From: a virus
Reading direction: 5' to 3' (one strand)
Virus record (IMG/VR): IMGVR_UViG_3300044679_000153
Coordinates: 1 to 25,940 of that record
DNA: 25,940 nt
Below, piece after piece: positions 2,588-20,173 of the stretch. A program made the position numbers and the translations under genes. Below the pieces are notes generated by a model, which was not told the DNA's origin, did no database searches, and saw nothing but the letters and a program-made list of their open reading frames with translations. Within the stretch, counting starts at the first letter, position 1, and each line of letters starts with the position of its first letter.

Positions 2588-2833
2588 AAGCAGGTGTACT
2601 TTGTGCGCTGTCCTCGCTGGAGCCGTGTAATTCCAGATCCAATTAGAGCTATCTTTTCTCAGCCCTCCCATCTCACGAACTACTGATTCAATTCTCTTCC
2701 AATACATCGTTGACCTTTTAATAAAAAAATAGTTTAAGAAACTTGATTTCACCTTCTCTTTTCATAGGGAACGTAAGGTTAAAAAGAAAGAAATTATTTT
2801 AAATGCAAACAAACAATTAAGAGGGCATGAAGA

Positions 2834-2986
2834 ATGAAAAAACATAAATTGAGCCATGCAGATGAAGTGAAAGGCGGGAAGGATTCTCATAAGCACGAAC
2901 ACCACATGAAAATGCATGAGCATCATAAAGAAAAAGCCAAGCATCACAAAGAGATGGCAAAGAAACATAAGCACAAAGGTGAGTGA
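2834..2986 (+). CDS. 50-residue histidine/lysine-rich protein
   Basis: This reading frame is preceded by AAGAGGG. It encodes 50 residues of which 13 are His and a similar number Lys, arranged as repeated H-K and H-H-K pairs (for example HKHEHHMKMHEHHKEK). The composition suggests metal binding or nucleic acid binding, but no family is recognised. Its TGA overlaps the next ATG by one base, and the three following genes are also small and very basic, so it belongs to one translation unit. Base use is purine-rich (GAAA and CATAAA runs), so the frame could be partly compositional. The start signal and the tight coupling argue that it is a gene. Confidence 0.6.
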   Translation: MKKHKLSHADEVKGGKDSHKHEHHMKMHEHHKEKAKHHKEMAKKHKHKGE

Positions 2987-3171
2987 TGGCTAAGAAATGG
3001 ATTCAGGAAGCTATAAAGCACAAAGGGGCGTTACATAAAGAAATGGGAGTTCCAGCAGGCAAAAAGATCCCTGCGGGTAAATTAGAGAAAGCGGCTCATG
3101 CCAAGGGAAAGCTTGGAAAGCGCGCTCGTTTAGCTGAAACTCTAAGAGGATTGCACCATAAGGGGAAATAA
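2986..3171 (+). CDS. small basic phage protein of the KKWIQEAIKHKGALHK type
   Basis: This 61-residue basic protein has the layout WIQ-AI--KGALHKEMGVPAGKKIPAGKL, then a Lys-rich linker, then GKRARLAETLRGL. I recall similar short proteins in many phage genomes near packaging and head genes, without a known function. I take the ATG at 2986, which overlaps the preceding stop by one base, rather than the GTG one codon upstream. Its own TAA overlaps the next ATG (TAATG). Confidence 0.72.
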   Translation: MAKKWIQEAIKHKGALHKEMGVPAGKKIPAGKLEKAAHAKGKLGKRARLAETLRGLHHKGK

Positions 3172-16646: not shown

Positions 16647-19600
16647 ATGAGTGTTACAACCACTGGAAATTTGGGGCCAATGATTCTCCAAAGCCTTGCA
16701 CCTGCAATGCTTTACGTCCCAACTCCAACAATGAATTATATTTTGGTATGCGACAAAGTGTCCATGCCAGTAAATGGAGGGACAACATGTCGCTTTATGC
16801 GGCCTCGCGCCCTACAACCACCAACTGTACAGTTGGGTAATAGCGGGATCGATGAAACTAGGTGCGTCGATGTAAAATCTGCTCTAATTGACTTGGAACT
16901 CCCTCTGGGACAACAAGGCGCAAGCCGAATGGCAGCGTGAACGACTTAACGAGTGGACTCGAAAGAGATGCGAAAGTCTGATCTCATAGGTAACTATGAG
17001 AAGGGGATCCGAAGAGGTTCCCTCGCCTTACAAGCTGCGGGTCAAAAAAGTAACAGATTGCCACCCGCCCAAGTGCCTCAACGCGACATCATCGATTTAG
17101 GCGCAAATGGCGTTCTTCGGTACGGGCTGTATCATAAATGAACAAGTGATATTGCAAGACCAAGAGGGTTATAGTTTTATAGCAGCTTAACAAGTATTTG
17201 TGCATAAATAGTACACCATGGTAGAATTTCAGTCAAAAGGAGTTCGCCATGAAGGAAGAAATAGATATGGCATATGCAGCGGGGATTTTAGATGGAGATG
17301 GAAGTTTTTCTTTACTTCTTCATAGAAGTGTAACTAAAAGTTCCTGGAGATCTTTTTATCATCCCTGTATTCAATTATCTAATGCATTTAAGGGGATGTC
17401 GGAATGGTTGCATGAAAAGTTTGACGGGTCTTTGAGGATTAAAAAACCACAACAACCTCATCATAAAACTCTTTATGTTTGGTCATTACGATCCAAAGAA
17501 AAGTGCAGTAATTTGATTGAAAGAATTTACCCATATCTTAAATTGAAAGGCGCTCAAGCAAAGTTAATGTTAGATTTTATCAAATCCGATCATTTCGATA
17601 TGGTGGCCGGGGAAAGATTTAATTTGAAAATGAAAGATTGTAATAAAGAAATATTGTTTAACCCAAAAGGGTATAATACACAATCTCTCGTTGATAGTAA
17701 AGATCCTATTTTTTGGTCTTACTTTGCTGGAATCATGGACACGGAAGGTTCTTTTTCATTTAAAAAAGAAAAAGCACATTCTGGGAGTGTATCTAAAAGA
17801 TATAATCCAATGATACAACTCACGATGATATCTTCTTCATGCATAAATTATATAAGAGAAAATTATTCTGGAGGCAGTTTTTGCGTTCCAAAAGCAAAAT
17901 CCGTTGGAAAGGGATATGCCTACAAAATGAATTTATGTGGTAGAAATGCTTGCCTGACATTTGTAAAGCACATTCTTCCCTATTTAAAATATAAGAAAGA
18001 TCAAGCTTCCTTGATTTTGAAATTTTGTGAGGAAAATAAGACTGTGAGAGATTGCAGAAATGGAATCCCTCCTGAAATATTGAAATTTAGGGAAGATTTG
18101 TATCAACAAATGAGACTGCTAAACAAATAACACGCCCTCTTAGCTTGGTGTGAATGGTGTTAGCATGGGTATCCGAAAGGTTAGCCGTGGCAATGCGCCA
18201 AGCCGAGGATTAAAATAAGTCCTCGATAAACCGACTCTAATCGACTTGGAAGCCCGGTGGGGTGACAAGGGCGAAGGTGTAAACCGCGCTGAACGACTAA
18301 ACGAGTTGGCCCGCAAGGGATGCGATAGTCTGAACCGCAACTATACATGAAATTGCGGAGGCCGATCCGAAGAGGTCGGCCCGCCTAGCAATAGGTCACA
18401 AAAGTAACAGAATGCTTATTTTACGAGACTATATTGTCTCCGCAGCTAGCGAGATTAACGCTGGTGGTGGGGCCAACGGTAGAAATGTTGCCGTTGTAAA
18501 ATCTTCTCTAATTGACTTGGAGTTCCTAGCAGCTTAGGCTGAAGGATAACAAGGGGCAAGATGAATATGAAAGATTGTGAAGATAAAAATTCGGAGAATT
18601 ACTTCATGTGCCATATGACACAAGAAGAGTTTGAAGAAAGAAGCCGTGGAAAAGAGATGTCTCCCCATGATTTCAATATGATTCAGCCTGACAGCAGTAA
18701 GCGAGAAGACTTTTATCAAAAATTAGCTAAAGAATATTTGGATGATAGAGAATATTGGGAACTAGGCCCATCGGAAAGAATATCCATTGAATGCTTTGCT
18801 AGTTGGTTAGATAGAAGATGCGGTACTCGGACCCCATGAGTAATCATGGGAGGCGCGTGCAATAGGCGCGCTCGCCAGTTGTGCCAAAAATGGGTACGGT
18901 TGGTCTGTAGGAATGGAAAGTTATGAAGGGACACAACGTCAGGATCGTTGTGAGTGCGTCAGGATCGCACGATTCCCTTCTTTTTGGTAAGTAAGGAAAC
19001 ATGATAATTATCCTTATCATAACAAGTGAGTGAAAATGGGTTTTTACTGTTGTTGCGATGCTAAAATCTCTGCTGGGGAAGGATGCTCATGTAATTGGGA
19101 AGGATGGACAAAAATCCACGGTCCCGATGATCGGCCTAAGATCTCCGGAACGTATTTAGTGAGAGTTTGCGACAATAGCGCTGATAAATGGGAACAGGAG
19201 ATGGAATATTCGGTTAAACCATATAGAATGGATAAACCTTATTATGGGCCTCCGTTTCCTATACATTGGAAAGATACTTCATGGGATGGCAATGTCGTCT
19301 ATGCATGGAAACCTGTTAACCAACAAACCATTCCGAAAGTAACAGAATAGGACAACCCGACTAACCTCGGGGTCTCAGATTTTAGTCTCGTAGCGGCAAC
19401 GTTGGATACCAACAATGCCTATAAATTCATGTCCGGTATTGAGGGCATGGACAGGTTTAACGAACCAGACCTGGATAAATCTTGGGTAATTGACTTGGAG
19501 TTCCTAGCAGCTTAAGCTGAAGGATAACAAGGGGCAAGCGACGAAAGTTTGCAGCCTGAACGACTTAACCCTGAGACCTCGAAAGAGGATGCGAAAGTCT

Positions 19601-20173
19601 GAACTCGTGGGTAACTACGAGAGAGCGATCCGAAGAGGTTGCTCCGCCAGTAGGTGAAAAATTGTAACCCACTGGTCAATATGACGAAATCTTGCGTCAA
19701 CATAATTGTGACGTAAAATTGCGTCAGAAGTAACAGAGAGTGGTACCGGCCCTGTGCGTTCAGCATACTTCATGCTGTCTAGCACCGAGCTGCAACCAGA
19801 TTTCGACGCTCTCACTGGTAGTGGGTTCCTATCTCAATGGAACTATCCTACCAATAGTTCCGCGCTGCCTTCAGAATACGGGTCTGTTTACAACATCCGT
19901 ATCCTGACAAGCTCGGAAGCGCCTGTAGCTCGTGGTGCTAGTGCTAACGACCGCGATGTTTACTACAACACTGTTGTTGGTAAGCAAGCGATCACGCACA
20001 TCAACCAGGACGGGTATTCAATGAACTTGATATACCGCGATCCCTACTATTCTGGAATGCTCGCGCAAAATGCTACCCTGGCGGTTAAATTCGCTCAGGC
20101 TCAAGCTATTACGCAAGATACAGCCATCAGAAACCTTCTGTGCACCCGCGCAGGTAACCAACAATACTTGTGA
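16647..20173 (+). CDS. major capsid protein, split into six exons by five intervening sequences
   Basis: Exons: 16647-16853, 17061-17169 (containing TTAG at 17097-17100 that must be skipped), 18157-18210, 18415-18480, 19351-19457 and 19741-20173. Joined without TTAG they give 972 nt, 323 residues and a stop. Landmarks follow the N4-gp56-like capsid family across every junction: LGNSGID/PPAQVPQRDIID/AQMAFFGTGCIINEQVILQDQEG, then VLAWVSERLAVAMRQAED, then LILRDYIVSAASEINAGGGANG, then DNPTNLGVSDFS, then IEGMDRF/GTGPVRSAYF, ending in a long C-terminal domain (STELQPDFDAL, DGYSMNLIYRDPYYSGMLA). The protein builds the icosahedral shell with the scaffold. No Shine-Dalgarno is seen before the ATG. Exon joins are inferred from P1/P10 pairing and the remembered family pattern, not from RNA data. 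Confidence 0.85.
16854..17060 (+). ncRNA. group I intron 1 of the capsid gene, 207 nt, no ORF
   Basis: The 5' exon ends ATCGAT (16848-16853) and pairs with guide GTCGAT (16866-16871), with the required U.G at the splice site. Core blocks shared with introns 3 and 5 are TAATTGACTTGG (16885-16896), P7 strands ACGACTT (16941-16947) and AAGTCT (16973-16978), a GTAA-capped P9 hairpin (CTCATAG/CTATGAG), GATCCGAAGAGG and AGTAACAG near the end. The intron ends at G17060, giving frame-correct GID/PPA. P10 pairing to this exon has a mismatch at the first base and then four pairs. Confidence 0.85.
17097..17100 (+). other. frame-breaking TTAG in capsid exon 2, candidate 4-nt excised segment
   Basis: Codons for RDIID end at 17096 and AQMAFFGT starts at 17101 in another frame; only loss of TTAG (or of one base) joins them. 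TTAG follows ATCGAT, the same hexamer as the 5' splice site of intron 1, and ends in G as group I introns do. The intron 1 guide GTGCGTCGAT (16862-16871) pairs with all ten bases of ATCGAT+GCGC. It may be a segment removed by the intron 1 ribozyme, or a mutation or sequencing error. Confidence 0.5.
17170..18156 (+). mobile_element. intervening sequence 2 with LAGLIDADG gene and guide but no own ribozyme core
   Basis: The 5' exon ends AAGAGGGT (17162-17169) and the 3' exon starts GTGTTA (18157). A 14-nt guide TAACACGCCCTCTT (18128-18141) matches the ligated exons over all 14 pairs, including the U.G at the splice site, so the boundaries are firm. The endonuclease gene fills the P1 loop and its TAA is part of the guide. 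After the guide only 15 nt remain. None of the core blocks of the other introns is found inside the element. A P2-like stem (18143-18152 with 18194-18203) reaches across exon 3 to the core of intron 3. Confidence 0.75.
17249..18130 (+). CDS. LAGLIDADG homing endonuclease, two-motif
   Basis: This 293-residue monomeric LAGLIDADG enzyme has motif 1 AYAAGILDGDG (8-18, catalytic Asp17) and motif 2 SYFAGIMDTEG (157-167, catalytic Glu166), each followed by a beta-rich DNA-contact half-domain (FYHPCIQLSN, RYNPMIQLTM). Such enzymes cut an intron-less allele at a long site and leave 4-nt 3' overhangs, which spreads the intron; some also help RNA splicing (maturase). AAGGAG six bases before the ATG indicates its own translation start. 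It lies within the P1 loop of intervening sequence 2 and its stop codon TAA is part of the splice guide. Confidence 0.93.
   Translation: MKEEIDMAYAAGILDGDGSFSLLLHRSVTKSSWRSFYHPCIQLSNAFKGMSEWLHEKFDGSLRIKKPQQPHHKTLYVWSLRSKEKCSNLIERIYPYLKLKGAQAKLMLDFIKSDHFDMVAGERFNLKMKDCNKEILFNPKGYNTQSLVDSKDPIFWSYFAGIMDTEGSFSFKKEKAHSGSVSKRYNPMIQLTMISSSCINYIRENYSGGSFCVPKAKSVGKGYAYKMNLCGRNACLTFVKHILPYLKYKKDQASLILKFCEENKTVRDCRNGIPPEILKFREDLYQQMRLLNK
18211..18414 (+). ncRNA. group I intron 3 of the capsid gene, 204 nt, no ORF
   Basis: The 5' exon CGAGGAT (18204-18210) pairs with guide GTCCTCG (18219-18225), seven pairs ending in U.G. Core blocks are TAATCGACTTGG (18238-18249), P7 strands GACTA (18295-18299) and TAGTC (18326-18330), a P9 hairpin CCGCAA.../...TTGCGG, GATCCGAAGAGG and AGTAACAG. 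It ends at G18414, so AED joins LILRDY. P10 is formed by TTATTTT of the exon and AAAATAA of the guide with the first exon base bulged. It may also serve intervening sequence 2. Confidence 0.85.
18561..18839 (+). CDS. 92-residue intron-encoded protein of unknown function, overlapping the ribozyme core
   Basis: The start ATG follows AAGGGG within the P5/P6 part of the intron. The protein is acidic and hydrophilic (EFEERSRGKEMSPHDF, EYLDDREYWELGPSERI) and resembles no homing endonuclease family I know. Its codons include both strands of the intron P7 helix, so the ORF is threaded through the catalytic core: the 5' P7 strand falls near residues 45-49 and the 3' strand in the last codons (RCGTRTP). 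Either the ORF is a lucky open frame or both functions are kept. Moderate confidence. Confidence 0.45.
   Translation: MNMKDCEDKNSENYFMCHMTQEEFEERSRGKEMSPHDFNMIQPDSSKREDFYQKLAKEYLDDREYWELGPSERISIECFASWLDRRCGTRTP
18925..18980 (+). ncRNA. three-way-junction RNA with two identical 7-nt loops inside intron 4
   Basis: GAAGGGA (18925-18931) pairs with TCCCTTC (18974-18980) and encloses two hairpins: CACAACG-TCAGGAT-CGTTGTG (18932-18952) and GTGCG-TCAGGAT-CGCAC (18954-18970). Every stem base is paired and both loops are TCAGGAT. TTTTT follows. It lies between the intron core and the second ORF. It may be a peripheral domain of the ribozyme, a terminator-like element or a protein-binding site. Confidence 0.7.
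19030..19350 (+). CDS. intron-encoded small protein with Cys-rich start and DUF551-like part
   Basis: The start may be GTG 19030 or ATG 19036; no strong ribosome binding site is visible. The protein (104-106 residues) begins with a cysteine cluster (FYCCCDAKISAGEGCSC) and continues WTKIHGPDDRPKISGTYLVRVCDN ending VVYAWKPV. The W-x-x-I...P-x-x-x-G-x-Y-L-V...W-x-P layout resembles DUF551-type phage proteins of unknown function. It is not a recognised endonuclease. The last codons GTA ACA GAA TAG lie in the conserved intron end, and the TAG stop is exactly the last three intron bases. Confidence 0.6.
   Translation: MKMGFYCCCDAKISAGEGCSCNWEGWTKIHGPDDRPKISGTYLVRVCDNSADKWEQEMEYSVKPYRMDKPYYGPPFPIHWKDTSWDGNVVYAWKPVNQQTIPKVTE
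19458..19740 (+). ncRNA. group I intron 5 of the capsid gene, 283 nt, no ORF
   Basis: The 5' exon CAGGTT (19452-19457) pairs with guide GACCTG (19468-19473), six pairs ending in U.G, and P10 is TGGT with ACCA. Core blocks are TAATTGACTTGG (19487-19498), P7 strands GACTT (19562-19566) and AAGTC (19595-19599), P9 CTCGTGG-GTAA-CTACGAG and GATCCGAAGAGG. Unlike introns 1 and 3 it carries an extra 3' extension with two tandem hairpins. It ends at G19740 and splits a Phe codon (TT/T), so it is a phase-2 intron. Confidence 0.85.
19682..19726 (+). repeat. two tandem 18-nt hairpin repeats in intron 5
   Basis: TGACG-(8 nt)-CGTCA occurs at 19682-19699 and 19709-19726, with similar loops (AAATCTTG and TAAAATTG). 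They form two small stems just before the conserved intron 3' end. The same inverted pair TGACG...CGTCA, with a 12-nt spacer, occurs upstream of the capsid gene at 16581-16602. Confidence 0.65.

Follow-up and report, generated by a model that had tools for sequence, protein, structure and literature searches.

The closest described counterparts of the element reported here are engineered RNAs. The element is intron 2 of the capsid gene in a phage contig of 25,940 nucleotides (nt) from IMG/VR (record IMGVR_UViG_3300044679_000153; this whole stretch was analysed and is hereafter called the window). Sequence comparison makes it very likely that introns 2 and 3 make up a single splicing unit served by one group I catalytic core. 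As far as the literature we searched extends, such a shared-core arrangement was previously known only from engineered RNAs, and no natural coreless intron of this kind was found in that literature, from which subscription papers were largely absent.

Trans-excision splicing (TES; Bell, Johnson, Testa and others) is engineered and works both in vitro and in E. coli, with segments of up to 28 nt removed in vitro and single nucleotides in E. coli (PMC4094466, PMC6155759). As described there, one guide pairs with the 5' exon, forming P1, and with the 3' exon, forming P10, and the excising core lies outside the segment. Intron 2 likewise ends in G, carries one guide able to form P1 and P10, and has its core outside. 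TES is engineered and acts in trans, whereas the segments here are natural, probably removed in cis and 30-987 nt long; each contains its own guide, and a P2 stem would anchor it to the core. Spliceozymes are engineered Tetrahymena ribozymes that remove introns of ~100 nt (PMC4094466). In both cases the intron has no core and would be taken out by a group I core to which it does not belong, but spliceozymes are engineered, act in trans and recognise the 3' site through P9.2 and not through a guide within the intron.

To our knowledge, natural interplay between neighbouring group I introns takes only the form of exon skipping. This has been described for tandem introns in phage Twort orf142 and in Coxiella 23S rRNA (PMC10136302, PMC11878797). 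There, two close group I introns interact across a short exon (23-34 nt), as introns 2 and 3 would, but both have cores and the exon is lost, whereas one core should serve both introns in the window and the exon is kept. In the split, trans-splicing group I introns of organelles, the core of one intron is divided between transcripts; group I parts lie apart along the sequence here too, but the core is whole and belongs to the neighbouring intron. The family otherwise resembles ordinary phage group I introns, sharing P1 with U.G, a final G, P10, a P3-P8 core marked by the P7 signature GACUAA...AUAGUC, and homing endonuclease genes in loops. Intron 2 and its kin differ in having only the guide, P2 and the terminal G, and the core that would serve them lies downstream of their 3' splice site.

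An exact guide without a core

Spliced-protein alignment with relatives divides the capsid gene of the window into six exons and five introns. The features that bear on intron 2 are as follows.

17101-17169, + strand: exon 2, second part, AQMAFFGTGCIINEQVILQDQEG; its final 8 nt (17162-17169) are the P1 strand AAGAGGGT
17170-18156, + strand: intron 2, guide-only (coreless); core-negative by profile hidden Markov model (HMM) and covariance model (CM), relatives having the same architecture
17249-18130, + strand: LAGLIDADG homing endonuclease gene in the P1 loop of intron 2 (Pfam PF00961, E=2.4e-8)
18128-18133, + strand: guide 2, P10 strand TAACAC, partner 18157-18162
18134-18141, + strand: guide 2, P1 strand GCCCTCTT, partner 17162-17169
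18143-18152, + strand: P2 stem, 5' strand GCUUGGUGUG
18157-18210, + strand: exon 3, 54 nt, VLAWVSERLAVAMRQAED, a conserved coding exon
18194-18203, + strand: P2 stem, 3' strand UGCGCCAAGC, within exon 3
18205-18210, + strand: intron 3 P1 strand GAGGAT, one base past the P2 stem
18211-18414, + strand: intron 3, group I with full core, 204 nt (HMM, 4e-44); guide 3 P1 strand GTCCTC at 18219-18224
18240-18336, + strand: P3-P7 core, proposed for introns 2 and 3 (CM, 94 bits, E=3.8e-20)

In intron 2, P1 has 8 bp and places U.G at the 5' splice site, and P10 forms 6 bp with the start of exon 3 (GTGTTA, 18157-18162); this pairing score was reached by 0 of 200 shuffled intron tails. The P2 stem joins 18143-18152 to 18194-18203 over 10 bp, G.U pairs included. 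An earlier note, made from the letters of the window, had proposed this 14-nt guide and its splice-site U.G pair, the stem of 10 bp, the coding exon of 54 nt and their coordinates, all of which were recovered.

The note had also claimed that intron 2 has no core, and that a complete core inside 17170-18156 would speak against a shared one. A CM built from 26 cores of this family gave a best score of 7.8 bits across that interval (E=1.9 window-wide), which is background, and nhmmer with the family profile found no core match in intron 2. Introns 1, 3 and 5 of the window scored E~1e-20 with the same CM. Intron 3 has P1, a core with P7 and a terminal G, with a near-full-length HMM match and a guide of its own; intron 2 has P1 with U.G, P10 and the terminal G, and lacks an internal P3-P8 core with a P7 G site. 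A core hidden in the P1 loop of intron 2 is ruled out by versions of 30-93 nt in relatives. The Rfam group I search that the note had suggested was indeed negative for intron 2, but it is uninformative because Rfam 15, at gathering and relaxed thresholds, matches none of the five introns of the window, those with cores included. A family-specific model is therefore needed, and Rfam-based surveys will overlook this family.

When the exons of the window are joined in silico, the protein matches the capsids of 127 relatives, save for a 4-nt insert, and 65 of these relatives, about half, have an intronless capsid gene. Exon 3 (VLAWVSERLAVAMRQAED) is identical across 12 of 12 relatives of its class. 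Exons next to coreless introns differ at rates of 0.074, 0.014 and 0.467 at the three codon positions, a pattern of purifying selection.

Guides, stems and cores across related capsid genes

Spliced-protein alignment of 128 distinct capsid genes of this family of uncultured phages yielded 168 introns (L048, a divergent gene with ordinary core introns, was set aside from the counts). The profile HMM matched a core in none of the 50 introns at amino acid (aa) sites 88, 91, 104 and 114, and in 118 of the 118 at all other sites. Coreless introns span 30-987 nt, most being 30-93 nt; L053 and L128 hold compact pairs in which the coreless intron measures 30 nt. Each coreless intron carries a guide whose sequence complements the junction that its own splicing would create, shows U.G at the 5' splice site, ends in G and has a P1 of 6-8 bp plus P10 (50/50; boundaries have two to three protein-equivalent placements, and aligner ties were resolved toward U before the intron and G at its end).

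At site 104, seven coreless introns hold a LAGLIDADG-type gene (946-987 nt), one another open reading frame (ORF; 325 nt), and nine are 30-93 nt long, so the endonuclease in the P1 loop is optional cargo. ORFs similar to the LAGLIDADG_1 protein of intron 2 occur in six further coreless introns, which suggests mobility by homing; against phages, the intron 2 endonuclease gave distant, partial matches only, and the capsid gave nothing against GenBank phages by DNA similarity or tblastn. Separately, core-bearing introns of ~1.15-1.27 kb with the core at the 3' end, after an ORF-sized stretch, occur in L067 and L205 (aa 123), L192 and L278 (aa 90) and L239 (aa 98); their layout is that of intron 2 plus a core.

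In these alignments the two strands of P10 covary where the exon base is a codon wobble position. For the threonine wobble base at exon +3 of site 88, exon and guide form U-A in 12 introns, A-U in four, C-G in two and G-C in one, so that all four Watson-Crick types occur and 19 of 19 are paired. At +3 of site 104 the pairs are G-C (9), A-U (7) and C-G (1). At both sites the observed pairing was reached in 0 of 5000 within-site permutations of exons; sites 91 and 114, with too little variation, gave no significant P10 covariation by permutation. The guide has also changed in step with the exon in L082 (the contig of L064), where a coreless intron at the site of intron 2 carries an endonuclease only 55% identical: TAACAC/GTGTTA has become TAATAC/GTATTA.

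A core-bearing intron lies downstream in all 45 genes that have a coreless intron, with 21-102 nt of exon between the two. Core introns occur alone in five genes and coreless introns alone in none (Fisher p=2.6e-29 for all genes and 8e-10 for intron-bearing genes, relatedness being ignored). After the guide, a linker pairs with an exon stretch that ends beside the downstream P1. Helix scores for this P2 average 19.1, against 11.0±0.3 for shuffled linkers, and in the strongest control true linkers scored 18.9 against 12.4±0.4 for linkers swapped from the same coreless site with another core position. In 45 of 50 cases the best helix ends 7-14 nt before the downstream 5' splice site, across exons of 21-102 nt, and the remaining five have a second helix of 6-7 bp at that position. 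Minimum free energy folds contain P2 in 50/50, against 22 on average with shuffled linkers (range 11-29), and in 49/50 the downstream P1 forms next to it.

P2 is re-targeted with the position of the core, for site 88 with cores at 96, 98, 101, 120 and 122 and for site 104 with cores at 116, 120 and 122. At site 88, for example, the linker is GTTGATGAT with a core at aa 96, AATGACTTGT at 101, CTCATC at 120 and CTTGTCTCA at 122; every version pairs immediately before the P1 that belongs to its own downstream core. The two strands also covary, as in GGCTAGA/TCTAGCC of L045 and GGCGAGA/TCTCGCC of L056. Pair counts on two alignments gave 14 double-change cells against 3.6 after shuffling (A2) and 10 against 2.3 (A3), values that 0 of 500 shuffles reached. 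The P2-like stem of the earlier note is real: it covaries and follows the position of the downstream P1.

A hold-out set of 21 unseen contigs was fetched after the predictions had been written down. It contained six new coreless introns (two in L177 and one each in L178, L192, L231 and L274), and all six have the guide and the U.G pair, end in G, lack a core and are followed by a core intron after 24-54 nt. The stem adjoining the downstream P1 is the best helix in three (L177 site 114, L178 and L274) and was found there by inspection in L177 site 88 (ATTGATGAT/ATCATCAAT) and L231 (AATAACT/AGTTATT); the best helix of L192 stops 17 nt upstream. Two large 'introns' in this set, L231_7.0 and L240_311.2, are aligner artefacts.

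A proposed single core for two introns

In the mechanism we propose, intron 2 would be a non-autonomous, guide-only group I intron. Guide 2 would pair with the end of exon 2 (P1, with U.G) and the start of exon 3 (P10), and P2 would join the last stretch of intron 2 to the exon 3 sequence that directly precedes the intron 3 P1. Because P2 lies directly after the guide and abuts that P1, guide 2 would be held against the intron 3 P1 and core at any exon length. The P1 formed by guide 2 would dock in the intron 3 core and guanosine would attack 17169/17170; exon 2 would then attack 18156/18157, with G18156 in the G site, and intron 2 would be removed. The 5' strand of P2 would depart with it, and intron 3 would splice conventionally with its own guide. 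Intron 2 should go first, because the core is lost once intron 3 leaves. Were intron 3 to leave first, intron 2 would stay behind with no core to remove it, and ribosomes entering it would reach a tail of two alanines and a stop (AA-stop), a possible signal for breakdown of the truncated capsid.

The order guide 2 - P2 - guide 3 - core, as the earlier note gave it, fits this evidence. Its observation that the 3' splice site of intron 2 lies upstream of the core is correct; the literature searched held no natural precedent for this, and TES is an engineered one. Every prediction of a shared core that sequences can address held, well outside the window too, and none of the 50 coreless introns or the six of the hold-out lacks a core-bearing intron just downstream. 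The missing core, the guides, the covariation of P10 and P2, the dependence on a downstream core, the re-targeted linkers and the coding exon are all visible in the sequence comparison; splicing itself, action in cis, the order of splicing and a degron function of the tails are what we infer.

Several points weigh against sharing of one core. All of the support comes from comparing sequences, and guide 2 and guide 3 would have to exchange in one core. The 50/50 count for U.G and the terminal G was partly assisted by the tie-break of the aligner, which leaves the covariation unaffected. The p-values overstate independence because the sequences are related. Conservation of the exon side of P2 proves nothing by itself, since that strand encodes protein, and it is the intron side and the covariation that count. 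Within the 104-122 class the downstream P1 (GAGGAT/GTCCTC) does not vary at all, and it is uninformative.

The other explanations differ in which RNA or process would deal with intron 2. It could be excised in trans, by an excised or neighbouring core (that of intron 1, 3, 4 or 5, on the same or another transcript) acting on guide 2 in the manner of an engineered TES ribozyme. Many of these genes do hold several related cores, and engineered TES and spliceozymes function in vitro and in E. coli (PMC4094466, PMC6155759). However, P2 lies against the P1 of the next intron downstream and shifts its target in genes where that intron has another position, and no coreless intron occurs without a core just downstream, even in genes holding other cores. 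We regard excision in trans as unlikely; with P2 targeted beside it, the core used is probably the downstream one on the same transcript.

Exon skipping, for which phage Twort orf142 and Coxiella 23S rRNA offer precedents (PMC10136302), would pair guide 2 with the 3' splice site of intron 3, so that 17170-18414 would leave as one intron and exon 3 would be missing from the protein. The P10 pairing of guide 2 with exon 3 is exact and the two covary; strong purifying selection acts on exon 3, which the 65 intronless relatives also contain. All of this makes skipping very improbable. Loss of the intron 2 core in assembly, or a dead gene, might be suspected in a metagenomic contig in which related introns repeat within the gene and the frame is broken at 17097-17100, but diverged versions of the coreless architecture recur in dozens of metagenome contigs that are independent of one another, and purifying selection acts on the exons; we give this extremely little credence. 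Translational bypassing as in T4 gene 60 and the mitochondrial byp elements, with short inserts staying in the mRNA while ribosomes hop, suits the 30-50 nt inserts in that known bypassed elements are of similar size, but it can practically be dismissed, as take-off and landing triplets match in 0/50, inserts of 946-987 nt occupy the same site, the guides pair both flanks with group I features, and a core is always downstream.

If introns 2 and 3 do share a core, group I introns would have a guide-only form, down to 30 nt in length, that lives off the ribozyme of a neighbour, a group I core in nature could accept a 3' splice site upstream of itself, and TES would have natural counterparts. This would parallel non-autonomous transposons and be a step toward a shared splicing machine for coreless introns. 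Searches based on cores would then miss guide-only introns and leave phage genes looking broken. The family supplies 56 natural variants for testing.

Alanine tails, short inserts and the rest of the gene

The remaining features of the capsid gene are as follows.

16647-16853, + strand: capsid exon 1 (spliced-protein alignment with relatives)
16854-17060, + strand: intron 1, group I, core at 16887-16984 (CM, E=3.3e-20; HMM)
17061-17096, + strand: exon 2, first part, PPAQVPQRDIID (alignment with relatives)
17097-17100, + strand: TTAG insert in exon 2, which breaks the frame; a candidate 4-nt nano-intron using the guide of intron 1
17170-17190, + strand: read-through tail YSFIAA-stop, in frame, intron 2
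18415-18480, + strand: exon 4 (spliced-protein alignment)
18481-19350, + strand: intron 4, group I core interrupted by ORFs (CM, E=5e-4; HMM halves)
19351-19457, + strand: exon 5 (spliced-protein alignment)
19458-19740, + strand: intron 5, group I, core at 19489-19605 (CM, E=3.6e-19)
19741-20173, + strand: exon 6 (spliced-protein alignment)

The core of intron 4 is broken by an ORF at 18561-18839, of unassigned family, and a second ORF (19030-19350) fills its 3' part.

Reading on from the upstream exon, the first stop is preceded by Ala-Ala in 43 of 50 coreless and 57 of 118 core introns (100/168), and Ala-Ala-stop occurs in 0 of 336 reads in the other two frames. Through some mini-introns the read-through passes whole and stops just past the 3' splice site. 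Tails include EQYALAA, EYALLAAA, ELALAA, DLEFLAA and FRLAA; those of the window are GASRMAA (intron 1), YSFIAA (intron 2) and DLEFLAA (introns 4 and 5). The SsrA tag ends YALAA, and several of the tails, such as EQYALAA and EYALLAAA, resemble it closely. As possible degrons encoded by the introns, they are likely to direct capsid fragments from unspliced messages to ClpXP-type proteolysis. No paper on intron-encoded AA-stop tails was found in the literature searched.

The TTAG at 17097-17100 adds to the account in the earlier note. An extra G, TTAG or TAAG directly after IID (ATCGAT) is present in 5 of 5 genes with a core intron at aa 69 (the window, L028, L039, L045 and L056) and in 0 of 114 others, and again in L178 of the hold-out. 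ATCGAT is also the 5' splice site hexamer of the aa-69 intron, every insert ends in G, and the GCGC or GCAC that follows can pair with the same guide (GTGC, GCGT or GTGT). These segments of 1 or 4 nt may therefore be excised under the guide of intron 1, as candidate nano-introns. Against this, all four single-G genes (L039, L045/L163, L056 and L178) miss one base at aa 94 (ATCAAT-AGCAG or -AACAG), a second change of frame soon after the insert. The inserts may instead be sites of programmed ribosomal frameshifting, but they share no slippery motif, and all follow U and end in G.

Only tentatively, and with less than even confidence, do we join these observations into one reading, in which a group I core serves itself, the upstream P2-anchored guide-only intron and, at intron 1, a nano-intron of 1 or 4 nt (G, UUAG or UAAG, after a second AUCGAU and with the same guide), while AA-stop tails mark capsid fragments of unspliced messages for proteolysis. 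If that were true, trans-excision splicing would occur in nature, down to the removal of a single nucleotide.

A CM match to the same core type lies at a locus edge (L016:1-81), several kb off the capsid gene. Host assignment through genome contigs gave matches in metagenome-assembled genome bins of several phyla. On L082, an ORF at 2662-3159 (- strand) looks by eye like a U-box/RING-type domain (CPIGQDQIKTAMIDECGHTFE...), which is unusual in a phage and possibly hints at an intracellular bacterial host.
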